Shown here: positions 31,989 to 50,200 of the stretch, piece after piece
Layout of the letters: every line of letters begins with the position of its first letter
How positions within the stretch are numbered: position 1 is the stretch's first letter
Assembly: GCA_900208305.1 (NCBI GenBank)
Contig: OAPG01000013.1
Span: 558,001-622,000, forward strand
Direction of reading: 5' to 3'
DNA: 64,000 nt
From: Melanopsichium pennsylvanicum
Taxonomy: Eukaryota > Basidiomycota > Ustilaginomycetes > Ustilaginales
The notes under the pieces: model-generated
Seen by the model: only the letters and a program-made list of their open reading frames with translations
Told to the model about the DNA's origin: nothing
The model's database searches: none
Translations under genes and position numbers: made by a program

Positions 31989-34346
31989 ATGGCCCAAAAC
32001 GTAACACATACCGAAGATGCCACATTAGATGGCGGTAATCCTCCCAAGGAACCTGCGGATATACGTCCTTCCACCGCAACCCCCAAGACAACCAACATCG
32101 GCGCCGCTCCCGCCACAAAAGCTTCCATAGTCCTCGCTAATTGTGAACCCAAGCCACTCATGGCTACCCCTTACTCTGACCGCATTCAAGCCGCCATGCG
32201 CGACGGCAGCGTCCGCATCCCCTCCGAGGAGCGCGAAGTTCGCGCACGCGAGCTGCTCGTCTTCTCCGATAGCGAGACCGAGTCCAATCTCTCGCGTCCT
32301 CCCTCGCCTGACCGCGACCGCTTCCCCAAACATCGTCTCAGCGGTCTCCAGGCCAAAGATCAGACCATCGTCAAGCACGGTCTTGAAGCGGAAGGTCCCG
32401 ACAATCTCGCGGCTCGATTGGAGCTAACACGCGAGAACAGCCCGTACGACATTCGTGCGCACTTGGCCGCACCCAGCTTTGCTGCGGTTGGCAACCAGCT
32501 TGATGCCGCCGCCGCCCCCGCCCCCGCCCCCGCCAACACCACCAACCCTCCCTCCCACGCGTTGTCAAGACGACCTTCGGCTGGCACCCCTGTTCAGGCT
32601 ACTGGCGCTGCTGCAGACGAACGTCCTCGCATTACCTCACGTCCCTCGTCGCCTCCACCGCGCGCCATGTCGCCCAGCAAGGCGACTGCTTCTACCAAGA
32701 TCAGCCACAATACGTTTTCGGCACCCACCAACGCTACGTTTGCCAGCACTCCAGCCCAACGCCCTCAGCCCCCCGTCGAACCTCAGCGTGTACCGTCGAG
32801 CAGCGCCGAGCAAAAGGAAAGGCCCAAGGAAAAGGAGTCCAAGGGCATGTTCCGCCGCATGCTTTCCGGTGCAGCTGGTCATTCGTCCGACAAGGACAAG
32901 TCTGCTGCTGCCGCCGCCGACGCTGCCAGCCCCCATCGTGAGCGCCCATCACCTCGAACCGCTGCGAGCCAGCAGGGCAATGGTCACGTTTCTCCTCTGC
33001 GATCCCCTTCGCTCAGCCGAGGCTCTACTCCTCCCACCAGCCCTCGCAACGAGATGGATGAGCCCGCACTCAATAACGCGTACCAGGCTATGAACATCAT
33101 CAGCCCGCCCACCAGTCAGCCTCCCAGTCGCAATGTCTCGATCAAGCGCAAGGACGGCAAGGATGCTTCCAAAGACGGTGCTAGCGAAGGAAGTCGTCTG
33201 ACAGTGGCAGCACTGCGTGACTGGGATGCCAAAGGCAAGCCCGAAAAGTCCAGCAAGAAGTCGGATCGTGGCAAGGACGGCGACGCCAAATCCACCGCCT
33301 CCTCGACGCTCCGCGATATGATCATGGGCAGTGCGCCCAAACTTTCTCGCCGAGGCTCTAGCGCCAGCCACGGCAACAAGTCCGACGGGGGCAGCAAGAA
33401 GGGTGGCAGCAAGAACGGTGGTAGCACTGCCGGTGGCGAAACCGCGAGTCTGCTCAAAAAGTACGGCGTTTGCGAGAAAGCCGCAATCGGCAAAGGTGCT
33501 ACCGCCGTCGTTCGACTTGCTCACAAGTGGGATCGATCCACAGAGAAGCTCTACGCAGTCAAGGAATTCCGTAAGCGTCGCAAGAATGAGACGGAAAAGG
33601 AATACGTCAAGAAGCTCACCTCAGAATTCTGCATCTCTTCGACCCTTCACCACATCAACATTGTCGAAACGGTGGATCTGGTGCAGGACGAGAACCGACA
33701 CTGGTGTGAGGTCATGGAGTACTGTCCCGGAGGCGATCTGTACGCTGCCATCAAGCGCGGAGGCATGAGTCAGGCCGAAGTGGAGTGCAGCTTCAAGCAG
33801 ATCCTCAACGGCATTGCGTATCTTCATTCGATGGGCGTGGCACATCGAGACATTAAACCGGAGAATCTGCTGCTAGACGGACACGGACATATCAAGATCA
33901 CCGATTTCGGAGTGAGTGACGTCTTCCGCATGTGTTGGGAAAAGTCGACGCATTACTCCAAGGGACTTTGCGGATCCGAACCGTACATCGCGCCGGAGCA
34001 GTTTGAGAAGAAGGAGTACGATGCGAGGTTGGTGGATGTGTGGGCGGCTGCGGTGGTGTTTTACTGCATGCAGTTCCAGGAGCTGCCATGGCGAGTAGCC
34101 AAGATGAGCGATCCCACGTTTAAGGATTATGTGGCGAGCTACGCAACCTCGCCTGCACCTAGTCCCTTGTCCAACCTCAGTCCGAGAGATTGCAGACCAC
34201 TGCTCAAAAAGATGCTCTGCCCAGATCCAAAGCAAAGGTTGTTCATGGATGACGTGCTCAAGGATCCCTGGTTGATGAGTGTCCCCATTTGCGAACAAGG
34301 TGCCAAGAACGATCATACCCATTCGGCCGCTCCTAGTATCAATTAG
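31989..34346 (+). CDS. Ser/Thr protein kinase of the Hal4(Sat4)/Hal5 family
   Basis: I start this 785-residue protein at ATG 31989 ([16 protein letters not shown], context AACCATGG). Residues 1-490 are Ser/Pro/Ala-rich and disordered, with a basic patch rich in Lys. The kinase domain covers about 491-760. It has the glycine loop [13 protein letters not shown], the lysine in [26 protein letters not shown] in KITDFGVSD, and the activation segment [14 protein letters not shown]. The combination [19 protein letters not shown] with [12 protein letters not shown]...[12 protein letters not shown] is characteristic of the fungal NPR/Hal subfamily. In yeast these kinases stabilise plasma-membrane K+ and nutrient transporters and confer salt tolerance. 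The exact orthologue (Hal4, Hal5 or Ppk8-like) is not resolved. Confidence 0.9.
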
Positions 34347-34584
34347 AAACAACAAACCCACTAAGAAACGGGAGCGTGTTCGTAAAATCAAGTTTACTCT
34401 CATCGTTGGCGGTTCCTTTTTTTTTTTTTTGGTTTTGTTTGGATTGATTTTCCCCTTTTTTTTTTTTTTTTTTTCTCTATTCATTTCAATCACATGCATA
34501 TTTTGTTGAATCCAAAGCTATTTGGTAAATGTGCTTTGCAGAACGAGTCTTGAGTAAGTTGGATGTGTGTGTTGTTTAATTTTG

Positions 34585-34587
<3 letters not shown>

Positions 34588-34616
<29 letters not shown>
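34588..34616 (+). repeat. Uninterrupted G29 homopolymer
   Basis: Twenty-nine consecutive G residues are preceded by TTTTGATT and followed by TTTATTTT. It lies about 240 bp downstream of the kinase stop codon, so probably in or just beyond its 3' UTR. The length may be affected by sequencing or assembly. Confidence 0.9.
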
Positions 34617-34618
<2 letters not shown>

Positions 34619-35502
34619 TATTTTATTGGTGAAGGAGTAGAAAAGCAAGGGATTTGGGATGTGAAGAGAGGATAGTTTTGCAAGTTGATTAGAAAAAAAT
34701 TTTCAGAGCTTTGGTGAAAGTTGGATGCTTGTGTTTTGAATTTGGGATGAGTGTGGATGATGTTTTGTTGTGATTTTAGGTAGTTAGTATTGTAACAGTT
34801 GAAAGCTTTTATAAATGGTTTGTAGTAAAAGCAGTGATAAATCCAACAACCATCAGTAAATAAAATGAGACCGGTGATGAAACAATTACTTTCACTTGAT
34901 CTGGATTTTGTTTTTCCTTTTTTTTTGCTTTTACCTCCAGAGCTCGGTACAATATGGCATTCATTCAACTTGCAAATTGGTTTGAAATTCAAGTTCATGA
35001 CTCAACTTTTGAGTCAAGTGATCAGTAGCTGCTTTGGAAGCATTATAAGTGTAATGAACTGATCAAAGTGATGTTGATCACACAAATTCTCCATGAATTG
35101 GTACAAGAGGTGGCAAGTAGTGGTAAAAAAGGTCATGGTGAAGAAACAAAAAAATGCTAGCAGTGTGTATGCATGATCCCAATCTGAAAAAGATTTGGAG
35201 GAAAGGTGTACATCAGATAGTTGATTGGCAGAGAGTGAAGGAATGTATTCAGGATCAAATGTGGTCATGGGACCTTGAATTTTATTGTTGTTAACAAGGA
35301 TGTTTGAGTTTTCCATCTTCATGTTCTGAAATGGTAGATGCAATCAAGACAAGATATTCTTTGCAGGATATGTTGACTTGAATGCTGTTTACCACACTAA
35401 TTTGAGGAATGAAAACAGTATGAATAGAGAAAAAATGTTTAGTAAACCATCACAAGACCAAAGAGGATCACAAAAAAAAAAAACAAAAAAAGGACCACTG
35501 CG

Positions 35503-35643
35503 GTTCTACTCACACAACAAAAGACCCTTTTCCAACCTGAGAGCTATACTCTTTAACAGCCTTGTCCAGCTTGTCCTTTCTCCTTCCACCAATGTAAACT
35601 TTAGCACCATTAGAAGCCAGAGCAAGGAAAGGACCAAGATTTC
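35503..35643 (-). pseudogene. Short-chain dehydrogenase/reductase fragment
   Basis: The minus strand reads NLGPFLALASNGAKVYIGGR and then RKDKLDKAVKEYSSQVGKGSF. This is the Rossmann-fold start of a classical SDR (a glycine-motif remnant, then beta2 with the NADP-type GGRR). A possible intron acceptor (CCCTCCAG) precedes it, and stops follow shortly after. The Gly-rich loop, catalytic Ser-Tyr-Lys and remaining domain are not found nearby. I take it as a relic, embedded in CpG-poor sequence. A spliced gene with short exons cannot be fully excluded. Confidence 0.45.
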
Positions 35644-36636
35644 TGGAGGGAAACAATGATTAATTGAGTCAAAAGGAGTCAAGCAGAGCAAAGGGAGAGG
35701 TTGAATTGAATTCTCATCTTGCGGTTAAAATGCACAAAGTACAAGGACAGGTACAATTAGTGGGAAGGTGCATAAGGGAAGAGAATTGATCGAGGTCAGG
35801 TCAGCCAGGTTACAACTTTGTTTGTATGACATCCTTGCCAACACACTTGGCAATGGCTGGTGGATGAACAAGTCATTGCTCTCTGTCTATTGCTCTGCCT
35901 TGCTTCAATTCCTGTGCACTTGACACCACTTGAATACTGGTTGTCACACACTTTGATCTTGGATTAGTATTTGATTTCAACAGCAATAGTCAGCTGAGCA
36001 CAGAGAGATAGTTGCGCACAAATTGTCAAGAACAGCAGAGCGCCATGAGTTATGTACATACAGTTCATTTAAATGCAAAGAAAGTTGGAAAGTGTATGTT
36101 TGCAAAGTTGGACTTTCAATGTGCATCTGTATGTGTTACGAGACTGTAAAGAATGAAGAATTAAATTGCAGTAATTAATGTTACTCTTGACGTCGGCAAT
36201 CTCTACTGCTGAAATGTAACCACCCGATTGGAATAGATACAAAGAAGAGAATCGGGACAGCTTGCAGATCTCGTACGGGAAAGTAGTCAAATCGCCGTCT
36301 TGTCCGATATGGTTGGTGGAGGTTTGATGCGTTTATGCATAACGCTTTGCTTGTGGCGCTTCAAGAAATTCACCGTCGACTCTGTGTCATGTGCAACAAA
36401 CAACACTATCACAGTAGTACCAACACTTTACTGCCTACTGAATCATACCATACAGATTACAGTAACAACAAGATCCCTGTGTGGTTTGGCTGCTCTGTGT
36501 TTCCCCCCGTGCACGAACCAACTGATACCCCTCAGAACAACAAGCTTTTGCCTCCTTGCCTCCCAATCAACCATCATCATCTCCCCACGAACCAATTCTA
36601 TCCCTCTTTAATCACTCTCCTCAAGTCTATTTCAGA

Positions 36637-37803
36637 ATGTCGCTCCCAACAGGCTCTGGTCCCACCTCGCTTGCCATCAACCCCGTATTCCGTCACGCAC
36701 ATGTTGGCTCCTTCCTTCGCCCAAAGGCCGTTCACGATGCTCGTGCCCAGTTCGCCTCTGGTTCCATCACCTATGACCAACTTCGCCAGGTTGAAGACCG
36801 AGAAATCGCATCTCACGTTCAGGAACTCTTAGCAAACGGTGTTCAGGAGATCACTGACGGAGAATTTCGTCGTGAATATTTCCACCTCGATTTCCTTAAA
36901 CACATTCAAGGTATCACTATTTCGAAAAATACTTTGGAACAGAAGGAAGGTCGTTCACCACCTACTCTTTCCGTCACTGGGAAACTTTGTCATACTCACA
37001 ATATCGAGGTTGACAATTTCCTCTACCTCAAATCGTTGGTTGGCGAAAATGATGTGAATAGGATTAAGATCACTATTCCTTCTCCCACCATGTGTCATTT
37101 TAGGGGTGGTAGGGCTGCGATATCAACCGAGGCTTATCCGGATTTGGAAGAATTCTTTTCGGATTTGGCAAAGGTTTATAGAACCGAGATCGATGCACTT
37201 TATGCTGCTGGTTGTAGGTATATTCAATTGGATGATACTAACTTGGCATATTTGACCGATCAGACTATGCGATCTCAAGCACAATCACGTGGTGAAGATC
37301 TTGAGAAACTTCCGCTCGATTACGCTCGACTCATCAACGCTTGTTTGGCTCTTAAACCAGCAGATATGGTGACTGCCATTCATCTTTGTAAGGGAAATTT
37401 TCGATCTCAATTCTTCGCACAAGGAAGTGAACAAGGTTATAACCCCATCGCACACGTTTTGTTTCAAAATTTGAACGTGAATGCTTTCTTTTTGGAATGG
37501 GAAGATGATAGATCAGGTAAAGATTTTTCGGCTCTTAACTATTTACCCAAGAATAAAGTGGTAGTTTTAGGTTTGGTTAGTAGCAAATTCGCTACTTTGG
37601 AAGAAGAGCAAAATCTTGTAACAAAGATTCATCAAGCAGCTAAAAGCGTTGTAGGGGACAATGGTTTGAAACAACTTGCAATCAGTCCTCAGTGCGGTTT
37701 TAGTTCAACGGTTCATGGTAACGAAATCACAAAGCAAACTCAGTTTGATAAACTTAATCTTTGTAGAAGTGTAGCTCAACGAGTTTGGAACGACACCATT
37801 TAA
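36637..37803 (+). CDS. Cobalamin-independent methionine synthase C-domain family protein (YxjG-like)
   Basis: This 388-residue ORF begins MSLPTGSGPTSLA. Features of the MetE C-terminal (Meth_synt_2) family include FRHAHVGSFLRP, NGVQEITDGEFRREYFHLDF, YIQLDDTNLAYLTD and HLCKGNFRSQFF. Further along are FFLEWEDDRSGKDFSALNYL, a GLVSSKFATLE strand and AISPQCGFSSTVHGN near the end. The last has the Cys of the zinc site. Such single-domain proteins resemble bacterial YxjG/YxjH and act on methyl transfer to homocysteine or related thiols. The methyl donor for the fungal members is not established, and full-length MetE is about 760 residues. No intron is needed. Confidence 0.88.
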   Translation: MSLPTGSGPTSLAINPVFRHAHVGSFLRPKAVHDARAQFASGSITYDQLRQVEDREIASHVQELLANGVQEITDGEFRREYFHLDFLKHIQGITISKNTLEQKEGRSPPTLSVTGKLCHTHNIEVDNFLYLKSLVGENDVNRIKITIPSPTMCHFRGGRAAISTEAYPDLEEFFSDLAKVYRTEIDALYAAGCRYIQLDDTNLAYLTDQTMRSQAQSRGEDLEKLPLDYARLINACLALKPADMVTAIHLCKGNFRSQFFAQGSEQGYNPIAHVLFQNLNVNAFFLEWEDDRSGKDFSALNYLPKNKVVVLGLVSSKFATLEEEQNLVTKIHQAAKSVVGDNGLKQLAISPQCGFSSTVHGNEITKQTQFDKLNLCRSVAQRVWNDTI

Positions 37804-38122
37804 GTGTACAATAATTTCATCTTCCCCAGTCATCATCATTTCACACATTCAGAAAGAAAATTATAATATTCATAAAAAAAAAAAAATAACAGTTCAACCT
37901 CCCCAAATGATATATATATTGCTACTTTCATCAATCCAATCCAATCCAAATCCTTCACTTTCAGTCGATTCCTTCCAAGTCTGCCATTCTTTCTTTGATA
38001 TGCTCAAGGTCATGAATGAATCTTGTTCTGACGATTTTATTTTGAATGGGGGCTCGTATTCGACATTGATTTAAAATGAACCTGAAAACGACACCAGAAT
38101 AGTCATCTCAAACGTGCGACTG
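37804..38122. other. Convergent intergenic region
   Basis: This is 319 bp between two stop codons. It contains an A12 run (about 37875-37887), a TATATATAT stretch (about 37912-37919) and CAATCCAATCCAA repeats. It presumably holds both 3' UTRs, and no gene is seen. Confidence 0.4.
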
Positions 38123-40432
38123 CTAACTTAAAACATGACCACGTAACCTTGTTTCAATAATATTCCTACCCAATCTCAATTCATTCTCTAGATCCGCCAA
38201 TTGTGCCTCACCTTCAACCCTCATCTCCAACGCCGAAGCTTGAGCTTTCATCTGCAACCATTCACCCAATGTCATAGCTCGTTCCGATTCGTCCACTTCC
38301 AACGTCGATAGCTGCTCCAATTGTGATAACGGTATTCTTCCATTACCACTGCTTAGTGTGCTTGTGGGTAGAGCTGAAGAGGAATGAGTCGCACGGATGG
38401 TGGCTTGTGAACCTGTATTCGGTAGCAACGCATCCGAATCAGTCATCTCCACATTGTCGCCATCGGTCGACGCAGCTTCAATTTCGTTTGCGAGAGACCT
38501 AGACTTTGCCGGACCGCGCTTGGTCGACGTGCTGGATGAGGCATGATCAGAGCAGGGTTGAGAGCTACCTGCTCTCGAAGATGCCTTTTTGGAATTCTTG
38601 TTCGAGACGGGGGCAAGTCCGCTTGAAACGTGGCGAGAGGAGCGTCGTTGTCGCTCTGGTTCAGGGTCTGCTTCGGAGCTCATTGATGGGAATACGATCG
38701 GGTCGATGGCCAGAGCAGATGCTTCTTTGGGCGTCTCAACTTCGCGCTTCTTCGATGCAGGTGGTGCAACAGCTTTCGTGGACGCTATGCGCGATCCTGT
38801 CCCAGCGGTTGATGCTTTGCTGGAAGAACGGACGGCTTTGGCACCACGACCGCGCCTTGTTGGCTCCTCAACAGGCTCTTCCCGCTCCTCCTCGACGTCT
38901 GCTTCCGACGCTTCGTGCTCGATGATGGTGTTGTCTTCGGGCATCAGCTCAGCTTCGTCCTCCGCCTCTGGTTCCGTTTCGAGGACCAGCTCCGGCTCTG
39001 GCTCTGGCTCTGGGGCAGGATCCTCTTCTGTTTCCGTTTGATCCAGCTTCTTGTTCTTGGATCGGCTCCTTTTGGGCTTTGCTGGCTGGACCGAATCAGT
39101 CACAGGCTTCGCGGCATCTTCACGTTTAGCTGAAGGGAAAGGGGTGGGATCCGACAGCGCCAGTTCCCGCTCCTCGATGTCCTCCTTATCGGGACGTCTT
39201 GGGATGCGGTTGACATCGCCGTCTGCAGACAGCAGCCCAATAGCCTTCGTAGCTCTTCTGCTGGCTGCACGCGACGGTCGCGCTGCTGTGGCCGTATTCC
39301 CATTGCCTAAGCCAGTCGCGCTTTTTTTCTTGCTGAGGGTCTTGGCTAATTCTTCGACTGCAGGAGATGCTTCTTCTTCGACAGGCTCTTCTGCGGCCTC
39401 TTCTACTTCAGCTTCCTGAGCGGCGGCCTTCCTTTGTGAGACACTACGTGTCTTGCGGCCGCCTTTCTTCGCAGGCACAGCCTCTACGGCGGGCTCTTCC
39501 GTGACATCTTCCTCTGCTGGTGCTTCGGTTTCGGGGGCAGGTGTTCCATCCTGCCCCTCAGACGTCTCTTGCCCGACCTCTTCCTCCTTTGCAGCCAGTA
39601 AGGCAGATTTTTTTGCCTTGCTGACCTTGTTGGATGCTTTCCGTGTAGTAGATGCGACGCGCTTGCCTTTCTTAGGCGCTGCGATGAGTTCGACCTCCTC
39701 TTCGGTGTCCACGCCAGGAGCTGCCTCCTCAGCTACTGGCTCTTCTACCGGCGCTGCATCTTCCGGCTCGCGTAGCTCGCAGTTAAAGAACGCGCACTCG
39801 GGATGTCGTCTCTGATGTTCGTGAATAGGATCGTCAGACTTCTCCCAGCCTCCCAGCGCCTTATGGCAGTAGATGCACTTGGCGTTATCGGGCTCTTCTT
39901 CGTTGGGCGTGAAGAAAAATCCGGCCTCGGCGAGCTTCTTGCTGGTTGGTTTCCAGCCCTTCTTTCCATCATACGGCCACTGTGTACCAAAAGTCTCCTT
40001 TCGCGCTTGCATCATCTCTTTGCTTGTTGGTAAGAGCTCTGCATCCTGCCATATCCATTTGCCGCTTTCTTTGTCAACGATTCCTCGGTCGTGACTGCGA
40101 AAGATACGACACCAGCCATTTCCTGGAATCGCTTCCTCGAGACGAGCGAGAGGGTCGTCGTTCGACTGCCAGTTGGTGATCGTGACGTCAGGGTAGAGGA
40201 AGTGACAGACGGCATCCAGAGCTTCTGATGTTGGAGCATGATAAAATCCATGCTTGGCGAGGAGAGCGGGTGTTGGGATGCCAGAGCTCTTGACACTGCG
40301 TCCGGTGGTGGGATGGGGCCACGATAGGGATGAGGAGGAGGCGGTCATCTTGGTGAACTGCCTCTTCTTGGCTGCTGATGTGGATGTGGAAGTGGTGGAG
40401 AAGGACGCCATTCGCTCTTCTTCGGCGAACAT
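38123..40432 (-). CDS. BIR1: Bir1/survivin-type BIR-domain protein (chromosomal passenger complex)
   Basis: I read 769 residues from ATG 40432 (MFAEEERMASFS). Two BIR domains occupy the N-terminus. BIR2 (about 145-218) has the zinc set C186, C189, H206 and C213 in AKCIYCHKALGGWEKSDDP and EHQRRHPEC. BIR1 (about 8-110) keeps WQSNDDP but has Leu98 where the zinc His belongs, and no clear CxxC pair. The rest is an acidic, Lys/Ser-rich region ending in a helix (LADLENELRLGRNIIETRL). This layout matches fungal Bir1, which anchors Aurora B-INCENP at centromeres. Codons just upstream stay open (PHQRYSAAV) behind a TTCACAG acceptor-like site. A short 5' exon could therefore extend the protein. Confidence 0.9.
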   Translation of the reverse strand: MFAEEERMASFSTTSTSTSAAKKRQFTKMTASSSSLSWPHPTTGRSVKSSGIPTPALLAKHGFYHAPTSEALDAVCHFLYPDVTITNWQSNDDPLARLEEAIPGNGWCRIFRSHDRGIVDKESGKWIWQDAELLPTSKEMMQARKETFGTQWPYDGKKGWKPTSKKLAEAGFFFTPNEEEPDNAKCIYCHKALGGWEKSDDPIHEHQRRHPECAFFNCELREPEDAAPVEEPVAEEAAPGVDTEEEVELIAAPKKGKRVASTTRKASNKVSKAKKSALLAAKEEEVGQETSEGQDGTPAPETEAPAEEDVTEEPAVEAVPAKKGGRKTRSVSQRKAAAQEAEVEEAAEEPVEEEASPAVEELAKTLSKKKSATGLGNGNTATAARPSRAASRRATKAIGLLSADGDVNRIPRRPDKEDIEERELALSDPTPFPSAKREDAAKPVTDSVQPAKPKRSRSKNKKLDQTETEEDPAPEPEPEPELVLETEPEAEDEAELMPEDNTIIEHEASEADVEEEREEPVEEPTRRGRGAKAVRSSSKASTAGTGSRIASTKAVAPPASKKREVETPKEASALAIDPIVFPSMSSEADPEPERQRRSSRHVSSGLAPVSNKNSKKASSRAGSSQPCSDHASSSTSTKRGPAKSRSLANEIEAASTDGDNVEMTDSDALLPNTGSQATIRATHSSSALPTSTLSSGNGRIPLSQLEQLSTLEVDESERAMTLGEWLQMKAQASALEMRVEGEAQLADLENELRLGRNIIETRLRGHVLS

Positions 40433-41012
40433 GACGGCGGCGGAATAGCGCTGATGCGGTTTCTGTGAAGATTAGGTTTGGTATGAGTTTGAAGCGTTGA
40501 TGTGCGTTGGGACTGTAGCCTCGGTGCTGCTATTGCGCTGATTTGAACTTTGCACTGGACCGCAATTCGTGTACAAAGCGTTGCGAGGTCAGTCGATGTC
40601 GAGGGTGCAGCGAAAATGTCGGGAGCACCGTCACGTCAAGACAGTCGGAGAGGGCGCAATGATGACTGAATGTGACTGGCAGTGGCAGTGGCAGTGGTAG
40701 TAGATGATGATGGTGTGACTCAAGTGAAAGCCCTCCTTCGTTACAAGATCGTCTTCTGAGCTGATGCTAGACCGAGTGAGCATGGGACATCGAAGTGGCA
40801 GTCTCACGACAAACATGCATACTTACGCCCAGAGAGGCCAAGTGTTACTTATGCGTGGTTCGCCAAAACTATCGCGCGCCACTGAAGCAACACTTAAGTA
40901 CGAGACTGGCTCACTTGCACTTATAGTTGTTAGACCGGAAGGAAGAAGCGCATCAATTCGCGCACGTGATCCCTCGAGCTATTTGTGTGCTACCAGAAGC
41001 GGATCTGCAGCA
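40433..41012. promoter_or_regulatory. Bir1 upstream region, interrupted by the retrotransposon insertion
   Basis: No gene is seen. The LTR begins 580 bp upstream of the Bir1 ATG, so this stretch is all that remains of the proximal promoter. It contains GTGGCAGTGGCAGTGGTAG-type repeats (40675-40700) and ends with the target duplication CAGCA (41008-41012). Confidence 0.5.
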
Positions 41013-42023
41013 TGTCAGCGGTCGCGTGCCAGAGATCCGAATTCCCGTGAGAAAGCGCGACTCGCCGGATTTCAGTGAATTCCGGCGGTTAAGCTTGGCC
41101 TCAACGGATATCGAAGAGAATCCCGCGAGTGGCGATCTCTCGACAGATATTGGCTGACCGCTGGTGACACTCCGTACAGAGGTAACGCGGCAAGCTCGGA
41201 CGGGGTATTCGGTCGACGCGAGTGTCACGACGTCGACGGGATACTGCTGATGGCTGGGTTAGACCTCAGCCGTCGTTGCCGGTGGAGTTATGAGGGACTG
41301 GTTGTGGTGCCAGGCCCGCGGTTGAGGTTCCGCCTGTAGTTGAGGTGCTACAGCGTCGATTGTGGTGTCGACAACGTCTATACGTTGTTCTCCGTTCACC
41401 GACGGGGACACAGACTATATGGATCGCAATAAATGGTATTGCAATGTGCGACGTGTGAAGAGTATGGTAAGTACGACGTACTGATAACTATGTGTGACTG
41501 AGATATAAGATAGAGTGGATGAGCTTCCGCTCATCCGATAGCGGGGAACAGAGTATTTATATATATGTATCGTGTGCGAGGTCCATCGGTACTGTACAAC
41601 CTGCGTGCGTCGAGCTTGGACCCCCGCACGATAAGACCGCCCCCTAGTCCTTCGGCAGGGTGCTTCCAAGCACGCCCGCGTGCTCCCTCTCCGTTGCCCC
41701 CTGGGCGTCGATTGGCCCACGTGTCGTTCCGGCGTGGCGTTGGTCGCCGCCATCGCAGATGCTCCCCTTGCCATCGATACCTTCGATATCCGGCGAGTCA
41801 CTGCCACTCGCCGAATTCCCGTGAGATCCGTTGAGACCTGCTCTCTCACCGGATTTCGTCCGATTCAACTTCTTGGTCCTGCGCTAACCTTAAATCCCAT
41901 GAGCCCACCAATATCCACCAGATCTCCCTGAGATCCGTCGAGACATGCTCTCCCACCGGATCTCAGCCGATTCAACATCTCTGGTCTGCGCAGACCTCTT
42001 CCTTGGGACCCACTCCCGTGACA
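41013..42023 (-). repeat. 3' LTR (left end of element)
   Basis: This is a 1011-bp LTR, identical in length to its partner. A TATA-like block (TATTTATATATATGTA, 41554-41569) sits in both LTRs, and on the element's strand it reads TACATATATATAAATA. The polypurine tract adjoins its right edge. Small ORFs inside it are duplicated in the other LTR and are not considered genes. Confidence 0.95.
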
Positions 42024-42125
42024 CTACCCCCCCTTCGAGAGCCAAGCTCCGTTGAGGCTTAAATAGGGTCGGCGGGTGTTTCCCCAACTTGTTCTTCCAC
42101 CAACATCGTTCCCCAAACCTTCAAA

Positions 42126-43283
42126 ATGTCGAGCACCTCGAACACTACCCCTTCCGCTGCGTCATTGCGACCAGCGTCGACACAAATGCCTGCCCTCCGG
42201 GCAGAAGAGCCTGTGCGCCGTAGCGCCAGGCTTTGTGAACGAAACCCTGCCGCTCGGGCAGTGGCAACCCCTTCGGCTGTCGGCCTCGAGGCCACAGCTA
42301 CGTCGTCCTCTGCTGCCGGCGAGCAGCCTCTCAAAATTGTCGCTGCCGAGCAGCTCGTCGCGTTGCGGTCGACGCCGCGACCACTAGAACCGTTGTTCCT
42401 GGGGAACAATGCTACGGGGGAGGAGGAGGAGCGGCTGGAGGCAATGGAGGTGGAGGAGTCAGTTGTGGGGAGGGTTAGCGAGGCCGGGGAGGACCCTGTC
42501 GCTCTGCTCGTTGGGCCTCGTGTGCCAAACCACCTCGAGATTGCGCTGTGGGCGGAGTCTTTTATCGCTCCGGTGTTGCTGGTATTCGTGGCGTGCGGGG
42601 CCTGGCCCCCTACTTGGGAGGTATTGGAGGGTTCCGTGACGGCCGGTTGGCTGCATCGTCTGGTCCTCCTTCGACTGACCGAGGGCTGCATGCCTTGGCC
42701 GAGCTGGCAATGCGCCCAATGCGCGAAGCTTGGTATACCGTAAGTACTACTGCTCCCTTCTCCGTTCGATACTCGTGTCCGTTCGATACGCATTGCTGAC
42801 CGCGGTTCTCCCCTTTTTTGTCCCAGTTGTTTTGCGTCGGCTTTCGCTGACGTACTTTCTGCCGGTGGTAAGGGCAGGACTCCGCGCGCTTGTGTGCACT
42901 GCCACCTTGGCGGCCACAAGAAATGCGTGCGTACTGTGAGGGCGTTGCCAACGACGGTATACGCTGGCGACGCTCCCCCTCGCCATCTGCATTGAGGCGA
43001 GCGTGGCGTCGAGCGAGCTCACGTCACTGGAGCGGGAGGTCGAGGATTGGGGGAGGTACGTGGGATCGACCGTGACTCGGATGGTGTGGCGGACCCCCAC
43101 TGGGCGCATGCAATGCGCATCATTTGGTCTGCCTCGCCTCGTAGTTGGCGAGTCCCGGTGCTGACGATGATCGAGGAGTACTTCGATCGTCAGCGGCAAG
43201 TGCGGTCTATGCGCTCGCCATTCGAGGCTCTCGAGCCTTCTTCGGTGCCTGGGCCTTCGTCAGCCCCCGAGTCGGCGGAGTAG
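42126..43283 (+). CDS. Antisense four-exon gene inside the retrotransposon; Zn2Cys6-like protein
   Basis: On the strand opposite gag-pol I read exons 42126-42739, 42827-42926, 42997-43055 and 43145-43283 (303 residues). The introns are 87, 70 and 89 bp. Their donors are GTAAGT, GTGCGT and GTACGT; their acceptors are CCCAG, TTGAG and CGTAG. All three joins keep frame. Splicing brings together QCAQCAKLGIPC and ACVHCHLGGHKKC. The resulting cysteine spacing, CX2CX6C-X20-CX2CX7C, is that of a fungal Zn2Cys6 cluster, though the central linker is longer than usual. The first half spans intron 1, which argues that the intron is real. The N-terminal 200 residues are Ala/Glu-rich with RRSARLCERN. The C-terminus has LEREVEDWG and IEEYFDRQRQVRS. 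A TTAAATAG element lies at 42059-42066. I know no named family. Confidence 0.6.
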
Positions 43284-43721
43284 TCCGTGCCCGCTGGCTG
43301 TGTCGACTTGTTGCAATGGCAGTGCTTCGTTACCCATTGAACCTAGTGTGAGCTTGATTGTGTGACTTCCGGTGTGCAACAGGTGCGACGACTCTGAGAA
43401 ATATACTTGTCAACTCGCGTCGCCCATTAAGGCCTGAGATCCTTTGGATCATGCATTCCTTGGCGAATTTCGTGACTTTTAGGTTCTCGTTACCCCGCAA
43501 TTCTTTTTTTAATTTTTTCTCTGAGATCCGTTGAATTCTGCAGTACTCGGCGGATTTCGTGGAAATTCCCTGAGTCGGGGTCATTGTCCGGATCTCGATT
43601 CCTGCAACCTTCTACCTTCGCCGCTCGACATCGTCCTTGTCGAGCTTCGTCCTTGTCGAGCTTCTCACCATCTTACTCTCCTGTGATGGCATGCATCGCG
43701 GCTCGCAAGCTCCTCTTCGGC
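43284..43721. other. Non-coding spacer between antisense gene and pol 3' end
   Basis: The two genes converge on this 438-bp spacer. It holds two copies of a short palindromic motif described in the findings (about 43435-43495 and 43520-43575), a T-rich tract at 43503-43519, and pyrimidine-rich sequence near the integrase stop. It likely carries both 3' UTRs. Confidence 0.45.
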
Positions 43722-44942
43722 TTAGTGTCTCCGTCCCCCCGCCGATTCCTCATACTCCCGGATGAGGTCTGGGCAGTTGAGACAGTCTGTCGGTTCCCAC
43801 AAGGCTGCCTCCTCGGGGTAGCCCCTCCATTGGACTTTGTACTGCACTTGCCTACCTTGTGTTCGCTTTCCCACGATAGCCTCTACCTCGAATTCTAGAG
43901 TGTCGTCCGGTAGGGGCGGCGTGATTTCAAGTGTGGAGCGCTGTGGGAGTGAGCTCGCCCTTTGAGGCTCGAGCATCGAGACATGGAAAACGTCGTGTAT
44001 GCGCAAACTTGCTGGGAGTTGGAGCCGGTATGCTCTTCTGCCGATTCGTTCGAGGATGGGGAACGGGCCTGCTAACCTTGTGTCGAGTTTGGGACTGGGT
44101 CGAGCTGTCTTCCAGTTCTTTTGGTTGACGTAGACCATGTCTCCAACTTTGAACTCGATGTCCTTACGTTTGCGGTTATATTGCTCAACGGTTCGGCTTT
44201 GAGCGTACCTGATTTGCTCCTGTAGATACTCCGTAAATTCTTTTCTTCGGGTGGCAAACTCTTTTCTCTTGGGGTCGAGCACACCGACTTGTTCTGGGAG
44301 ATCGGGGTGTGACTTTGGATTCCACCCGTAGCAAGCAAAGAAAGGCGAGACTCCTATGCTGCTGTGGACCGTGTTGTTGTAAACGAACTCGGCCATCGGC
44401 AGCCAGGTTACCCAGTTGTCCTGCTCGTAGTTGCAGTACATACGGAGGTACTGCTCGACAACTTGATTGACTCGCTCCGTTTGCCCGTCCGTCTGTGGGT
44501 GGTAGGCTGTGCTGAGCGAGTGGTGGATGACCAGCTTGTCGGTGAACTCTTTCCATGCCGCCGAGACAAATTGTCGGCCGCGGTCTGAGACAATGTGCTC
44601 CGGTACCCCGAAACGGGACATAACTTGGTCTTTGAGCATCTTTGCCGTCTGCTCTGACGTTATTGTCTTGTACGTCGGGGTTAAGATGGCATATTTGGTC
44701 AACCGGTCGACCACTACAAAGATTGAGTCATACCCCTCCGATTTAGGTAACCCTTCAATGAAATCCATCGAGATGGAATTCCAGGGTCTTGACGGCGTCG
44801 ACAGCGGCTGCAAAAGGCCATATGGTCGGTGTCGCGGTGCTTTATATCGAGCGCACACTGGGCAGCTTGCTACATAGTCAGCAACCCATGCCGCCATATT
44901 TGGCCACCAATAATGCCGCCTTGCGAGCTCGAGGGTGGCGTC
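43722..44942 (-). CDS. Integrase with chromodomain (pol 3' part, after an internal stop)
   Basis: This frame continues pol after a TGA at 44945-44943. Its first ATG is at 44897 (391 codons). The zinc-binding HHCC module is split by the stop: HYWWPNM and SCPVCARYKAPRHRP lie here, its first His upstream. The catalytic triad lies in SISMDFIEGLPKSEG, HIVSDRGRQFVSAAW and HPQTDGQTERVNQVVEQYLR. A GPF/Y-like module follows (RLAGPFPILERIGRRAYRLQ). Last comes a chromodomain (VEAIVGKRTQGRQVQYKVQW, RGYPEEAALWEP). Integrase inserts the cDNA. Chromodomains of this class can bind methylated histone H3K9 and steer insertion to heterochromatin. Confidence 0.93.
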   Translation of the reverse strand, partial: DATLELARRHYWWPNMAAWVADYVASCPVCARYKAPRHRPYGLLQPLSTPSRPWNSISMDFIEGLPKSEGYDSIFVVVDRLTKYAILTPTYKTITSEQTAKMLKDQVMSRFGVPEHIVSDRGRQFVSAAWKEFTDKLVIHHSLSTAYHPQTDGQTERVNQVVEQYLRMYCNYEQDNWVTWLPMAEFVYNNTVHSSIGVSPFFACYGWNPKSHPDLPEQVGVLDPKRKEFATRRKEFTEYLQEQIRYAQSRTVEQYNRKRKDIEFKVGDMVYVNQKNWKTARPSPKLDTRLAGPFPILERIGRRAYRLQLPASLRIHDVFHVSMLEPQRASSLPQRSTLEITPPLPDDTLEFEVEAIVGKRTQGRQVQYKVQWRGYPEEAALWEPTDCLNCPDLIREYEESAGGRRH

Positions 44943-47486
44943 TCAACCTGCATGGCCAGCGGTAGCGCCGTTGTGGCATTGGGACATCACCATGTATCTC
45001 AGGTGCTCCACCGAGAGCGAGCGATCCTTTGCTTCGGCGGCACTCCGAGTGTTGCGTTGACCTTTCTTACCTGGTAATGTGACTCGCGGCACCACTAGCC
45101 GACCGTCGCGATACCACAGGCCATGTCTAACTTCGAAAGGTTGCTTCTGATGAAGCTCTGCGAGCTCGGCATCAAGCGGCTGGAAAGTCTTTACAAGTTG
45201 GACCAGCCCTCCCTCCGCAATATCGGACATCGTTGGTTTTAGCATATTTATTTGAGATTCGGCGAGTAGCTCTTTCTTGGCGAATTTTGGTGAAATCCGC
45301 CGAGTTGGGTCCACTCGGCGGTTTTCAAAATCCTCGGCAAATACTTGTGCCGGTAACAGCTGTCGGACGTTGTGTAGGTCTTCTTCTGCGGTCGGCTGCA
45401 TATCACTTCGTCGTGTCAACGCATCTGGCTCTCCCGCTTTATCTCCCGGTCTGTATTGGAGTACAAAGTCGAAGTCAGCAAGTAACACTGACCATCGAGC
45501 CTGCTGACCTGTGATCTTCCGCTGAGACTTGAAGTATTTGAGCGCCTCGTGATCCGTGAGAATAATGAGCTGACTAGGTAGTCCTGCAAGCATGTGCCGC
45601 CAGTGGTTGAGACAGACGACAACAGCGAGGAGTTCCTTGTCATGGATCTTGTAGTTCTTCTCCGCCGATGCCATCTTGCGCGAGTAGAATGCTATTGGGT
45701 GCCATCGTCCGTCGTGCTCTTGTTTGAGTACTCCAGCGAGAGCGAAGTTGCTTGCGTCCGTTTCCAACCGGGTAGGACGATGGTAATCGAAGTGTTTGAG
45801 AACCCCAGCGGTGGTGAACATTTCCACCAGCTTGTGGAAAGCAGCGCGAGCGTCGTCAGGGAGGTCGAACTTCTTGAATCGCTCTGTGGGCTTAACAAGG
45901 GAAGTGAGCGGTCTCGCTATACGTGCAAAGTGAGAGATGAATCTGCGATAGAAGTTGGCAAACCCGAGGAAGCGTTGGATGTCGTGTATAGACTCCGGCA
46001 TCGGCCATTCCTTGATAGTCCTGATCTTGTCGGGGTCCATCTCGATACCTGACGGCTTGATGATATAGCCGAGGAACTCAACAGTATCGGTATGGAACAC
46101 GCACTTCGAGAGTTCGGCGAATAACCGCCATACCTTGAGCCTACTGAGCACCGTCCTGACGTGCTCGATGTGTTCCTTCTCGTTGTCGCTGAAGATCAGG
46201 AAGTCGTCAAGGTATACTACCACGTATACGCCAATGATGTCGCGGTAGATGGTGTTGATGAGCGATTGGAAGTGCGCGGGCGCATTTGCCAACCCGAATG
46301 GCATGACCAGATACTCATACAGTCCGAGTTGAGTTCCAAACGCGGTTTTCCATTCGTCCCCGTCGGCGATCCTAACCAAGTTGTAAGCTGCCTTTAGGTC
46401 CAGCTTGGTATAGATCTTCGCTTTTCGTAGGAGGAACAGCTGCTCCTCGATTAAGGGCAGTGGTGCTCGGTTCTTAACCGTGACCTCGTTGAGACCGCGG
46501 TAGTCTACGCAGAGTCGCAGGCCGCCGTCCTTCTTAGGCACGAAGAGGACGGGGGATCGCGCCGGGCTCTTTGAGGGCCAAATGAATCCCTTCTCGAGAT
46601 TCTCTTCGAGGTACTTCCTCAGCTCGGCCATCTCCTTAGGTCCCTTGAGATATAGCGGACCTTGAGGTGGCGTCAAACTGGGTAGTAGCTCGATGTGCAA
46701 GTCGTGCTTTGTGTGAGGGGGAAGCTTGTCCGCTTCGACCTCGTCGAATACACCCTTGAGGGGGTAGTACGGGGCTGGGATTTCGACGGCAGTGGGAGGC
46801 TCTTCTAGTGTCGTTTCCATCTCTATGCCTTTGTCGCCTCCCGTGGGGACAAAGCCAAACGACGGGAGCGACGTCGGAGGAGCGCTGATTAGCATGACCC
46901 CTATGGGGCCATCCCGTAGTGCCGCCTGGACGAGCTCGTTGGCGTCGACGAACTCGTAGCCATGTACTACTAAGTTTGCTCGAGATTCGGCAGATCGGCC
47001 GGTCTCGGCGGATTTCGGTGAAATCCCTTGAACAACCGCGTCTGACCGGATCTCGTTGGTTTTTCCGAAATCGAGCTGTCCAGTATCCCAATGGACCCTT
47101 GGCTGTAGGCGTCGTAGTTCATCGTACCCCAGGATGAAATCGTAGTCGCTAGCGTCAGCGACGGCGACCTTGAGCATCCCTAGGTGTTGTCCTCCTATGA
47201 CTACGTCGACGTCAGCAGCGCTCGTGATCGTGAGGGAATGTCCGGTCACTCCGTGTACGGTTCTGTTTTTTATGGGTTTTGTGGTTATCGAGTACTTGCG
47301 AACAAACGGAGCTGAAACTATAGACAATGCAGCGCCGGTGTCGGCGAGAATGCTAGCAGGATGGTGGTTGACCGTACCTGCTAGCTCAAGTACTGAGGCA
47401 CCGGAAGCTGCAGAGAAACATAATGAACAATCTTGACATATACAAGGTGATGGCGAAGGCGGTCTTAGAGCGATGCATGCCATCAT
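44943..47486 (-). CDS. Pol polyprotein: protease, reverse transcriptase, RNase H
   Basis: This 847-codon frame runs from ATG 47486 to TGA 44943. The aspartic protease has ILADTGAALSIVS. Reverse transcriptase shows LRLCVDYRGLNEVTVKNR, LVMPFGLANAPAHFQSLIN and the active site VVYLDDFLIF. RNase H has LETDASNFALAGVLKQE and ILTDHEALKYF. The frame ends in GATAGHAG, within the integrase zinc module, at a TGA where family members continue. Pol overlaps gag by an ATGA junction in the -1 frame. Two short palindromic repeats lie inside linkers of this frame (about 46984-47070 and 45250-45310). Confidence 0.95.
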   Translation of the reverse strand: MMACIALRPPSPSPCICQDCSLCFSAASGASVLELAGTVNHHPASILADTGAALSIVSAPFVRKYSITTKPIKNRTVHGVTGHSLTITSAADVDVVIGGQHLGMLKVAVADASDYDFILGYDELRRLQPRVHWDTGQLDFGKTNEIRSDAVVQGISPKSAETGRSAESRANLVVHGYEFVDANELVQAALRDGPIGVMLISAPPTSLPSFGFVPTGGDKGIEMETTLEEPPTAVEIPAPYYPLKGVFDEVEADKLPPHTKHDLHIELLPSLTPPQGPLYLKGPKEMAELRKYLEENLEKGFIWPSKSPARSPVLFVPKKDGGLRLCVDYRGLNEVTVKNRAPLPLIEEQLFLLRKAKIYTKLDLKAAYNLVRIADGDEWKTAFGTQLGLYEYLVMPFGLANAPAHFQSLINTIYRDIIGVYVVVYLDDFLIFSDNEKEHIEHVRTVLSRLKVWRLFAELSKCVFHTDTVEFLGYIIKPSGIEMDPDKIRTIKEWPMPESIHDIQRFLGFANFYRRFISHFARIARPLTSLVKPTERFKKFDLPDDARAAFHKLVEMFTTAGVLKHFDYHRPTRLETDASNFALAGVLKQEHDGRWHPIAFYSRKMASAEKNYKIHDKELLAVVVCLNHWRHMLAGLPSQLIILTDHEALKYFKSQRKITGQQARWSVLLADFDFVLQYRPGDKAGEPDALTRRSDMQPTAEEDLHNVRQLLPAQVFAEDFENRRVDPTRRISPKFAKKELLAESQINMLKPTMSDIAEGGLVQLVKTFQPLDAELAELHQKQPFEVRHGLWYRDGRLVVPRVTLPGKKGQRNTRSAAEAKDRSLSVEHLRYMVMSQCHNGATAGHAG

Positions 47487-48853
47487 TGCATCGCTCCAAG
47501 GTCGTTTCCCTCGTCCTCGTGGTAGGGCTCGCCTGCGTCTTGATCGTCGGCGAAGAGGTTGGGGTCAAAGTGGTCTTCAAGACCGCCATCGTCTTTGCGA
47601 TGGTCTTCAGCTCCGTCTCCTTCCTCTGGTGAGCCGTCCTGTGGTTTCTCCGACTCCAACACCACGTGCGCTCGCATCTGTGGTCCTGATGGTCTAGCCG
47701 GGTAAACCGTTGGCTTGGCGTCTGGACAGTTCCGCTGCCAATGCCCGGTCTTGCCGCAGACCCTACAAGCGTCGCTGTTAAATGTCGTCGGGCCGGGGAC
47801 GACCCTTCGGTCGTCGCGAGGTCTCGGTGGTGCTTCCCGTACCGGCAGCTTCTGTGCCAGATGAGGGGGCAACGGTCGAGAGCCAGTTCTCTGGGGAATG
47901 CCCGGTTCGGTATGAGCAGTCCTGATTGCTGGGGTTGGGGCAAAGCGGACAGCATTCTGCTGATGCCGCATACGCTGGCGATCAATGTCCTCGACCTCCC
48001 GGTACCAGGCCCACTGGTCTTCAGGTGGGTTACGCTCGAACTTCTCCTGAAGTGAGCAAGTAAGGCTCCCTCGGAAGAGGTCGATGACGAACTCAGGGTC
48101 CTCCATGTGGCACTGAGCTGCCAGGTCTCGGAATTGCTCGACATGTCGCGTTGCTGCTCCTGGTGCGTCGGTAATAAGCCTCAACGCTAGGAGTTTGTTG
48201 TAGGCATTGACCCTGTCGCTGCGCTGATTGTACAGCTCCCTGAGTCGAGTGGTGAAGTGGCTCCAATCATGGAAGAGCATCCCTTGACGATGCCGGTTGA
48301 CGCGGAGCTTACCCTTCCACCACTCTCGAGCGGTGCCCTCGAGCTGAGCTGCCGTGTGTAGGATCATCGAAGTATGGTCGTACACACCATTAGCCTTGAA
48401 CCAAGCGTCGGCCTTGAGAATGAAGATATCGATGTCGCGAGTGTCGAGCTTGGGGAATGGAGTCTTGAGGGCAGCGTGGGGCTGAGTGTCCTGTTCACTG
48501 CCAGTGCCGGTCCATGCCCCTGGGGTCACCGGTTTGACATACCGAGGTCCAGTAGGCGTAGCGTACTTTTCTTGGTCGGTGTACGCTTGTCGGTCGAGAA
48601 TGTCGAAGGTGACGGACCGAGGGTGTGGTCTAGTCGCAGGAGTGGGTGTCTCAAGACCACCGAGGTAGGACTCATCCGCCTGCTGCAAGGCTCGACGGGT
48701 CAGGGAGCTTAGATCATGCTCCCTAGCTCGTCGACCAGGGGAGGGAGTCTCCTGTTGGTCAAGCCAAGCCTTGAGGGCGGCATTGTCTACCTGCTGCTGC
48801 TCAAGGAGGGCGATGAGGCGGTCGAGTCTGTCATGTAGTGCAGAGTCGGCCAT
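47483..48853 (-). CDS. Gag polyprotein with CCHC zinc knuckle
   Basis: This is 456 residues from ATG 48853. The N-terminal coiled coil (LHDRLDRLIALLEQQQVDNA) is followed by the retrotransposon Gag core (AREWWKGKLRVNRHR, HDWSHFTTRLRELYNQ) and a basic proline-rich linker. One CCHC knuckle follows, CRVCGKTGHWQRNC. The acidic tail (DGAEDHRKDDGGLED...) ends at a TGA that overlaps the pol ATG. Gag forms the virus-like particle and binds element RNA. Confidence 0.93.
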   Translation of the reverse strand: MADSALHDRLDRLIALLEQQQVDNAALKAWLDQQETPSPGRRAREHDLSSLTRRALQQADESYLGGLETPTPATRPHPRSVTFDILDRQAYTDQEKYATPTGPRYVKPVTPGAWTGTGSEQDTQPHAALKTPFPKLDTRDIDIFILKADAWFKANGVYDHTSMILHTAAQLEGTAREWWKGKLRVNRHRQGMLFHDWSHFTTRLRELYNQRSDRVNAYNKLLALRLITDAPGAATRHVEQFRDLAAQCHMEDPEFVIDLFRGSLTCSLQEKFERNPPEDQWAWYREVEDIDRQRMRHQQNAVRFAPTPAIRTAHTEPGIPQRTGSRPLPPHLAQKLPVREAPPRPRDDRRVVPGPTTFNSDACRVCGKTGHWQRNCPDAKPTVYPARPSGPQMRAHVVLESEKPQDGSPEEGDGAEDHRKDDGGLEDHFDPNLFADDQDAGEPYHEDEGNDLGAMQ

Positions 48854-48893
48854 CTTGGTGAACTTGGGGCGTCGCTTGTACGATCCACTCTAA

Positions 48894-49904
48894 TGTCAGC
48901 GGTCGCGTGCCAGAGATCCGAATTCCCGTGAGAAAGCGCGACTCGCCGGATTTCAGTGAATTCCGGCGGTTAAGCTTGGCCTCAACGGATATTGAAGAGA
49001 ATCCCGCGAGTGGCGATCTCTCGACGGATATCAGCTGACCGCTGGTGACACTCCGTACAGAGGTAACGCGGCAAGCTCGGACGGGGTATTCGGTCAACGT
49101 GAGTGTCACGACGTCGACGGGATACTGCTGATGGCTGGGTTGGACCTCAGCCGTCGTTGCCGGTGGAGTTATGAGGGACTGGTTGTGGTGCCAGGCCCGC
49201 GGTTGAGGTTCCGCCTGTAGTTGAGGTGCTACAGCGTCGATTGTGGTGTCGACGACGTCTATACGTTGTTCTCCGTTCACCGACGGGGACACAGACTATA
49301 TGGATCGCAATAAATGGTATTGCAATGTGCGACGTGTGAAGAGTATGGTAAGTACGACGTACTGATAACTATGTGTGACTGAGATATAAGATAGAGTGGA
49401 TGAGCTTCCGCTCATCCGATAGCGGGGAACAGAGTATTTATATATATGTATCGTGTGCGAGGTCCATCGGTACTGTACGACCTGCGTGCGTCGAGCTTGG
49501 ACCCCCGCACGATAAGACCGCCCCCTAGTCCTTCGGCAGGGTGCTTCCAAGCACGCCCGCGTGCTCCCTCTCCGTTGCCCCCTGGGCGTCGATTGGCCCA
49601 CGTGTCGTTCCGGCGTGGCGTTGGTCGCCGCCATCGCAGATGCTCCCCTTGCCATCGATACCTTCGATATCCGGCGAGTCACTGCCACTCGCCGAATTCC
49701 CGTGAGATCCGTTGAGACCTGCTCTCTCACCGGATTTCGTCCGATTCAACTTCTCGGTCCTGCGCTAACCTTAAATCCCATGAGCCCACCAATATCCACC
49801 AGATCTCCCTGAGATCCGTTGAGACATGCTCTCCCACCGGATCTCAGCCGATTCAACATCTCTGGTCTGCGCAGACCTCTTCCTTGGGACCCACTCCCGT
49901 GACA
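48894..49904 (-). repeat. 5' LTR (right end of element)
   Basis: This is the 1011-bp copy of the LTR, upstream of gag in the element's orientation. It is followed on the minus strand by TTAGAGTGGATCG before the gag ATG at 48853. I could not match a tRNA primer-binding site there, so the priming mode is unknown. Confidence 0.95.
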
Positions 49905-50200
49905 CAGCATTTTTGGAAACCTATGTGTCAGCATAGCGCTTTCACTGCAGAGAAAATTTGAGGGCTCACACACTGTAGAAGGCTGTGTCCCAAGACATCA
50001 AGATCAACAACACAGAGTGCGGTGCAGCCAGATTGTTAAAAGAGAAAGTGCTTTTCAGTGAAGCCAGACTGAATGCAGGTGACCTGTATCCATACCAAAG
50101 CCATATAACTGAAGCCTGTGATGCACCGAATCATCTATATTTCCACTGTCAGGTCATCTGGCTCCTCAAAAAGCAGTAAAACCAGATCAAACAAAAAAAA
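49905..50200. other. Flank right of the element
   Basis: It starts with the target duplication CAGCA (49905-49909) and continues as CpG-poor sequence with a small frame (49985-50179) that resembles nothing. It ends in an A8 run that borders the tandem duplication. Confidence 0.5.

Follow-up and report, generated by a model that had tools for sequence, protein, structure and literature searches.

Why should a retrotransposon carry a spliced gene on the strand opposite gag-pol, and what might that gene do for the element? The question is raised by an LTR retrotransposon in a 64,000-nucleotide stretch of the smut Melanopsichium pennsylvanicum genome (contig C13, positions 558001-622000, hereafter the window). 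It was approached through comparison with other copies, using own-genome searches that cover the 21.1-Mb genome.

The host element

The complete element occupies positions 41013-49904 on the minus strand, as defined by LTR alignment, flanks and pol domains. It is a chromovirus, with reverse transcriptase (RT), RNase H, an integrase core, a C-terminal chromodomain, and LTRs bordered by a target-site duplication (CAGCA at 41008-41012 and 49905-49909, flanks read directly). The 3' LTR (41013-42023, minus strand, TG..CA) and the 5' LTR (48894-49904, minus strand) are about 1011 bp each and approximately 98.9% identical, with 11 mismatches in 1013 aligned bases. A putative polypurine tract (42024-42036, minus strand; plus-strand sequence CTACCCCCCCTTC) abuts the 3' LTR. 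Pfam places protease, RT and RNase H in the 5' part of pol (44943-47486, minus strand), and the integrase core, SH3_Tf2-1 and chromodomain in the 3' part (43722-44897, minus strand), with E-values of 3.6e-36 for RVT_1, 3.6e-35 for RT_RNaseH, 1.9e-16 for rve and 1.2e-13 for Chromo. Since pol is broken into two frames here, whereas many other copies have an open frame of 1280 codons in a stop-free match, the window copy is decayed.

Each LTR contains a 72-nt unit twice, 107 nt apart (41819-41890 and 41926-41997; 49700-49771 and 49807-49878), near the antisense gene; this unit is a candidate regulatory repeat. An Rfam scan of 40900-50000 found nothing at gathering level, and a tandem-repeat scan of the same interval gave a single 16-nt array scoring at least 50. 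The host genes at 31725-40432 encode a protein kinase, a cobalamin-independent methionine synthase-like protein and a BIR-domain protein, and the element is inserted about 580 bp from the start of the BIR ORF.

A two-exon antisense gene

A preliminary description of this locus had placed, in the interval separating pol and the 3' LTR, a gene on the strand opposite gag-pol, starting at 42126 and ending in a stop codon at 43281-43283; comparison of 29 copies bears this out. A genome search with 42126-43283 found at least 40 matches, 85-100% identical; of these, 40 were retrieved together with their flanking sequence, and the 29 that were near-full and in a single piece (window copy included) were aligned, the other 11 being left out. 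The alignment supports two exons on the plus strand, at 42126-42739 (204 codons plus 2 nt) and 42827-43283, and a sole intron between them at 42740-42826 (87 nt in the window copy, GTAAGT..CAG). This is the first intron of the preliminary description, and its splice sites hold across copies: the donor is GTAAGT in 25/29, GTGAGT in three and ATAAGT in one, and the acceptor is CAG in all 29.

The only indels in the exons are 9 or 21 nt long, and those that shift the frame all lie in the intron or the leader. Intron length ranges from 70 to 93 nt and falls into the three residue classes modulo 3 in 10, 7 and 12 copies, with the downstream frame still kept, and the alignment shows that splicing is needed to preserve the frame. 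When the two exons are read through, all 29 copies reach a common stop after 356, 353 or 349 codons. There is no internal stop in 16 copies and at least one in the other 13; an in-frame stop at codon 261 is common to 8/29 (TGA at 42993-42995 in the window copy) and absent from 21/29. The NCBI model MEPE_05597 (P0001), on the contig of copy L016, is the identical two-exon protein.

In the 26 of the 29 copies that have a full integrase, the gene was read as running antisense to gag-pol in the space separating pol from the 3' LTR, convergent with pol. Among the remainder, L015 is truncated by the edge of the fetched sequence, L016 matches integrase in part and L028 does not match it. Judged by coordinates, adjoining gene sequence accompanies 31 of 34 integrase copies that are at least 95% identical, a 3' remnant accompanies two, and one has none. 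The gene is an aORF-3R, being antisense, located between pol and the 3' LTR, and kept in most copies of the family. A TATA-like TTAAATA (42059-42065, plus strand), 67 nt 5' of the antisense ATG and within a block almost invariant among 26 copies, is a candidate core promoter.

The preliminary description had also postulated two further introns and a 303-codon product from four exons, and this part of the model has to be abandoned. To arrive at the claimed lengths, one 70-nt intron must be placed at either 42927-42996 or 42944-43013 and another intron at 43056-43144. These stretches behave as coding sequence: dN/dS is 0.35 for 42936-43004, which overlaps both 70-nt candidates, and 0.21 for 43056-43142, and the coding phase, seen as third-position excess in the 29 copies, is continuous through both. 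Moreover, the extra introns serve to bypass the codon-261 stop that most copies lack. A four-exon frame can indeed be constructed from GT..AG pairs, but with intron 1 fixed there are 945 stop-free GT..AG combinations, so that a path with extra introns is easily found; we give the four-exon gene almost no credence. Chance as the origin of the two-exon frame is excluded by the 29 copies.

Selection on the reading frame

Segregating sites pile up in third codon positions in exon 1 (chi-square p=3.5e-4) and exon 2 (p=9e-6), the corresponding value for intron 1 being p=0.79. Nei-Gojobori dN/dS is 0.33 for exon 1, 0.15 for 42828-42992 and 0.29 for 42996-43280. Summed over the 29 copies, the gene frame has 4 stops in exon 1 and 10 in exon 2, against 48-105 and 37-98 in the other five frames, although within 42828-42992 alone the other frames hold merely 3-44. 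One minus-strand frame also has a low dN/dS (0.35-0.45), as an echo of the identical third positions. Along the protein (26 copies), dN/dS is lowest in residues 181-240, which include the six-cysteine part (0.08-0.15), and in residues 91-120 (0.12), and reaches about 1.0 in residues 31-60.

Comparison of the copies thus shows that the antisense gene is coding and under purifying selection, and we are practically certain that it is a real, selected accessory gene. In the 26 copies with a full integrase, its dN/dS is 0.286 versus 0.278 for integrase and chromodomain. Random decay of the frame beside a conserved gag-pol, the outcome that the preliminary description had named as fatal, is not what is found, since the gene matches integrase. 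Given the same equality, the role of passenger, which had been proposed as one possibility, is unlikely.

The six-cysteine region

The pattern CX2CX6C-X20-CX2CX7C was correctly recognised in the preliminary description. It comprises residues 196-238 (42711-42926, plus strand), is located wholly in the two true exons, and is split by the intron, which the first CX2CX6C spans. Closer to the N-terminus there is a basic stretch, which in the window's family (family 1) mostly reads RRSAR or RRSVR and in a sister family (family 2) RRSAR.

The proposal of a Zn2Cys6-like protein is only partly sustained. In the canonical Zn2Cys6 domain (Gal4-type, PF00172) the spacing is CX2CX6CX5-12CX2CX6-8C, with a linker of 5-12 residues. 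Both halves of the antisense protein fit, as two CX2CX6-7C units, whereas the linker has 20 residues in family 1 and 18 in family 2 and in Ustilago homologues; halves aside, the sequence lies outside the canonical spacing, and it differs further in having an intron within the domain. The cut-out segment scores 14.3 bits against the Pfam Zn_clus cut-off of 21 (E 0.046, 12 residues aligned), and a Pfam search with whole proteins of families 1 and 2 gave no match. Hence the cysteine pattern is zinc-cluster-like, but membership of the Pfam family is not supported.

No PDB entry was matched by sequence. AlphaFold modelling of the annotated 356-aa protein (19 sequences) gave a pLDDT of 41 overall and 60-70 in three or four cysteine-flanking blocks, and the sole PDB match in a fold comparison of this model had an E-value of 9.3; the models are poor, so that structure prediction supports neither metal nor DNA binding. 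The conserved six-cysteine core of the approximately 356-aa protein is probably metal-binding.

Relatives in a sister family and in Ustilago

At E<=1, two rounds of protein searches yielded 36 and 84 proteins, and those with names belong to M. pennsylvanicum and Ustilago species; many of the low-scoring rows in round two align with just 2-20% of the query, perhaps through shared composition. Homologues in Ustilago hordei, U. nuda, U. tritici and Ustilago sp. UG-2017a, represented here by protein sequences alone, and in the sister family have 34-57% local identity. The better Ustilago proteins retain LTEGCMPWPSWQC..C...G..C...HC......C. The six cysteines are complete in 10 of 15 Ustilago rows and part of the region is missing in the other five; P0033 is without the last cysteine, and three gene models (P0034-P0036) stop exactly at the intron start. 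Protein clusters of 75 and 24 sequences are as expected for a repeated gene. Among viral contigs, 10 pattern matches included no relative.

The antisense gene of family 2, in the same genome, is 34-41% identical to that of family 1. In a copy on C4 (L058), exon 1 is followed by the intron GTAAGTAG..TTGTAG and exon 2, the intron lying at the same codon and in the same phase as in family 1, and the protein is 39% identical to that of family 1 over 210 aa (E 2e-40). At four places (three on C23, one on C22) family 2 gene sequence stands on the 3' side of an integrase 66-73% identical to that of the window, in convergent orientation. A matching polypurine-like tract precedes the gene in family 2. 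Sequence comparison shows the antisense gene to be conserved in this sister chromovirus family and in Ustilago. The C4 locus (389900-392200) has lost integrase and kept the antisense gene, and loci on C12 and C13 are similar, with no integrase match nearby; family 2 copies of this kind are possibly non-autonomous elements.

An island of old diversity

The antisense gene is far more variable than the element that carries it. Nucleotide diversity (pi) in 100-nt windows is 0.07-0.16 across 42100-43300, falls to 0.04-0.05 at 43300-43600 and is 0.01-0.04 in integrase; in the LTR it is mostly 0.02-0.04, with one outer-edge window at 0.11. At 4-fold sites, pi is 0.136 in the gene versus 0.038 in integrase. 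Within the genome there are 35 full-length RT matches of 95-100% identity among the best 40 of 107 candidates (the next rows being partial or from the sister family at 72%) and 34 full-length gag matches of 96-100%, whereas identity of the antisense gene goes down to 85% in its at least 40 matches. The only non-gene stretch that varies as strongly is a segment of about 20-30 nt ahead of the ATG.

This excess might be due to a mutational hot spot and not to maintained variation. Convergent transcription could be mutagenic and the copies do decay by CpG deamination, but the distribution of variants makes this explanation a doubtful one. Singletons outside CpG are about equally frequent per site in the gene (0.066), integrase (0.057) and LTR (0.050), whereas shared non-CpG variants reach 0.188 in the gene exons against 0.037 in integrase and 0.055 in the LTR (gene versus integrase, Fisher p=1.5e-8, with copies that are not independent). 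CpG sites have no excess of shared variants in the gene (p=0.89). Because singleton rates are alike and shared variants are in excess, old variation appears to have been retained, and new mutation not accelerated. The copies show that excess old variation is confined to the antisense gene, in an element otherwise almost uniform and with a protein that is constrained.

There are 10 N-terminal types, which recombine with the C-terminal ones, MPSTSNTAT being paired with both C-terminal types. Pairwise distances in the gene and in integrase are barely correlated: Mantel r ranges from -0.07 to 0.20, with p=0.002 for the highest pair that was tested (r=0.17).

One aspect does not fit the simple picture. 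The ratio of non-synonymous to synonymous variants outside CpG in the gene is 0.87 for singletons and 0.81 for shared variants, against 2.56 expected; in integrase it is 1.62 and 0.32, against 2.93 expected. Singletons in the gene are thus constrained like its shared variants, and the latter are less constrained than those of integrase. At CpG sites of the gene the ratio is 1.29-1.37 against 1.57 expected, as in near-neutral decay.

A gene-deleted form of family 2

A 221-nt query spanning the missing gene identified family 2 loci at which the flanks are joined, all locus counts being lower bounds. The gene body is absent at 20 or more loci, 16 of which match at 100% and 4 at 99% over the 221 nt; two lie in tandem on C10. 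In L052 and L053 the joined ends were read directly, with the deletion scar at L053:3860-4080. Gene sequence lies between separated flanks (94-96% identical) at six or more loci, four of them full-length, with a flank spacing of 1.36 kb on C4, C12, C13 and C23, 0.81 kb at another C23 locus with a shortened gene, and 9 kb at an interrupted one on C22. An older C23 copy (281578) has the gene and no flank match. At some of the loci that retain the gene, integrase has been lost or the gene is incomplete.

The antisense gene is thus dispensable for the spread of family 2, or supplied in trans, and the gene-less form has the appearance of a recent burst. The burst is one event, in which a founder effect may have played a part.

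Antisense genes in other LTR elements

The antisense gene brtn of Boty, a gypsy element of Botrytis cinerea, reportedly goes back to Zhao et al. 2011. HBZ of the deltaretroviruses is a spliced antisense gene at the 3' end that acts on the element's own transcription; it encodes a bZIP protein of an animal virus, and is an analogy to the smut gene without any relation.

The available texts describe antisense genes in Boty (PMC7264820, PMC8365987) and in deltaretroviruses (PMC11963269), and antisense ORFs at the corresponding place in the plant elements Retand, Grande and RIRE2 (PMC7264820, PMC11963269). The statement of the preliminary description that none of this structure was known thus needs qualification. 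Boty is likewise a Ty3/gypsy element of a fungus, with a single antisense gene lying between pol and its 3' LTR (PMC7264820, as far as its available text goes), but it is an ascomycete element, and brtn is likened here by description. Gene23 of maize Grande and the aORF of rice RIRE2 are likewise antisense at the corresponding place, and gene23 is nuclear with its own promoter, according to the accessible part of PMC7264820; the smut gene, likened by description, differs in being spliced and highly variable. Retand belongs to a non-chromovirus lineage, and the domain of its TRP28 (PF04195) is absent here, with no Pfam match at E<=1 in two intact copies. The available portion of the Retand text (PMC11963269) contains neither the word intron nor the word zinc. 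Some fungal chromoviruses are drawn with an unoriented additional ORF of unknown function, a likeness that extends to an extra ORF in a fungal chromovirus and comes from a figure legend alone (PMC2864245).

A literature search, with most subscription journals outside it, found, in titles and abstract starts, no antisense gene in an element of a smut or other basidiomycete, no spliced antisense ORF and none with a local excess of diversity; the words antisense and Ty3 are absent from PMC9603552. Antisense ORFs in LTR retrotransposons are already known, while old diversity confined to such an ORF was found described for none in the texts as available.

A possible regulator of its own element

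The element carries, antisense between pol and the 3' LTR, a two-exon accessory gene for a protein of about 356 aa with an arginine-rich N-terminus and a six-cysteine core. Antisense transcription would begin at a promoter immediately internal to the 3' LTR, with the TATA-like box at -67. The intron would persist because it sits on a strand never used as genomic RNA; the preliminary description had made the same point, and the presence of intron sequence in 29/29 copies, with a GT donor in 28, is as expected if this strand is not copied. The protein might have a nuclear role in regulating the element, most likely as a brake on expression or amplification, which is the step of which we are least sure. 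To the reading that the antisense accessory gene regulates its own element we assign a probability of roughly 0.55. It is favoured indirectly, by the conservation of the gene, the basic N-terminus, the cysteine core, the LTR-side placement with a conserved leader, the TATA-like box and the gene-less burst, and by analogy with the nuclear Grande gene23, with its own promoter, and Retand TRP28 (PMC7264820, PMC11963269, in their available parts).

The protein might instead be a positive co-factor of transposition, for example by delivering the integration complex to the nucleus or directing it to chromatin. A dN/dS equal to that of integrase and presence beside 31 of 34 integrase copies in family 1 fit such a useful function, as does retention of the gene by family 2 loci on C4, C12 and C13 despite loss of integrase (C4 read directly). 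Against this, the gene-deleted form of family 2 has reached at least 20 near-identical loci, which means that the gene, if not supplied in trans, is not needed there. On balance we consider a co-factor unlikely, yet worth keeping in view.

A regulator of the kind preferred here could also account for the diversity, although this extension is tentative and itself rather unlikely. The antisense gene would be a self/non-self gene encoding a trans-acting repressor, whose variants are kept by negative frequency-dependent selection, as rare types escape resident copies, and reshuffled by template switching; its loss would have released the 20-locus burst. What argues against a role in specificity is that the DNA target should vary too, yet the LTR sequence is nearly uniform. 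If true, such a gene would be the counterpart, in a eukaryotic LTR element, of a phage immunity region.

Capture of a host gene, once, as a passenger is a distinctly less probable origin. The absence of similarity to retroelement domains in Pfam and the canonical intron, as in host genes, agree with it, and the Ustilago homologues, known from proteins alone, may occupy a host locus; however, the gene occupies the identical position in two families whose integrases are about 70% alike, with a sustained dN/dS of 0.29. Still less likely, and by a long way, is that the antisense RNA alone matters, through dsRNA or collision, with the frame incidental. The gene is convergent with pol, and antisense transcripts have been proposed as regulators of LTR elements (PMC7264820, available text), but codon-level selection, frame-preserving indels and conserved cysteines are found, and dN/dS contradicts RNA as the sole explanation.

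One genome here contains intact and decayed copies as well as a sister family with and without the gene, a coexistence of forms that makes it possible to test what such a gene does. The intron is a clean marker for antisense transcription, and exemplifies the way in which a retroelement can carry along a spliced gene.

Decay of copies and a third family

Across 42066-43343 in the 29 copies, 89 of 145 singletons are C>T or G>A, and 59 of these 89 lie in CpG, which suggests deamination of methylated CpG in element copies. RIP-like mutation in anther smuts prefers TCG. Here NCG contexts are generally raised, along with TCT (5/22 sites), and not TCG alone; fungal RIP with a TCG preference was therefore rejected, CpG deamination fitting the singletons better.

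An antisense gene is found too in a more distant chromovirus, family 3, whose integrase is about 44% identical; by coordinates it lies, at five pairs, about 0.8 kb beyond integrase on the opposite strand. An exon of this gene was searched with an 86-aa query that includes some adjoining intron, and 38 of 45 matches encode 85-86 of the 86 aa without a stop. The copy at L055:3129-4580 (plus strand; C16:402500-408500) has four exons and three canonical introns, with CX2CX6C-X8-CX2CX7C in a 144-nt exon of its own, and one more copy (L043/L026 overlap, a single locus) agrees with these introns. Profile comparison of families 1 and 3 gave no support for kinship (hhalign E 0.39), and AlphaFold modelling of the 47-aa exon alone reached a pLDDT of 60 with no zinc-cluster look. 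Four NCBI models omit the cysteine exon of family 3. On C15 (L043, L026) a family 3 element is nested inside a family 1 copy, and the NCBI protein P0024 (MEPE_05452) is an annotation chimera that joins part of the antisense protein to a family 3 chromodomain.
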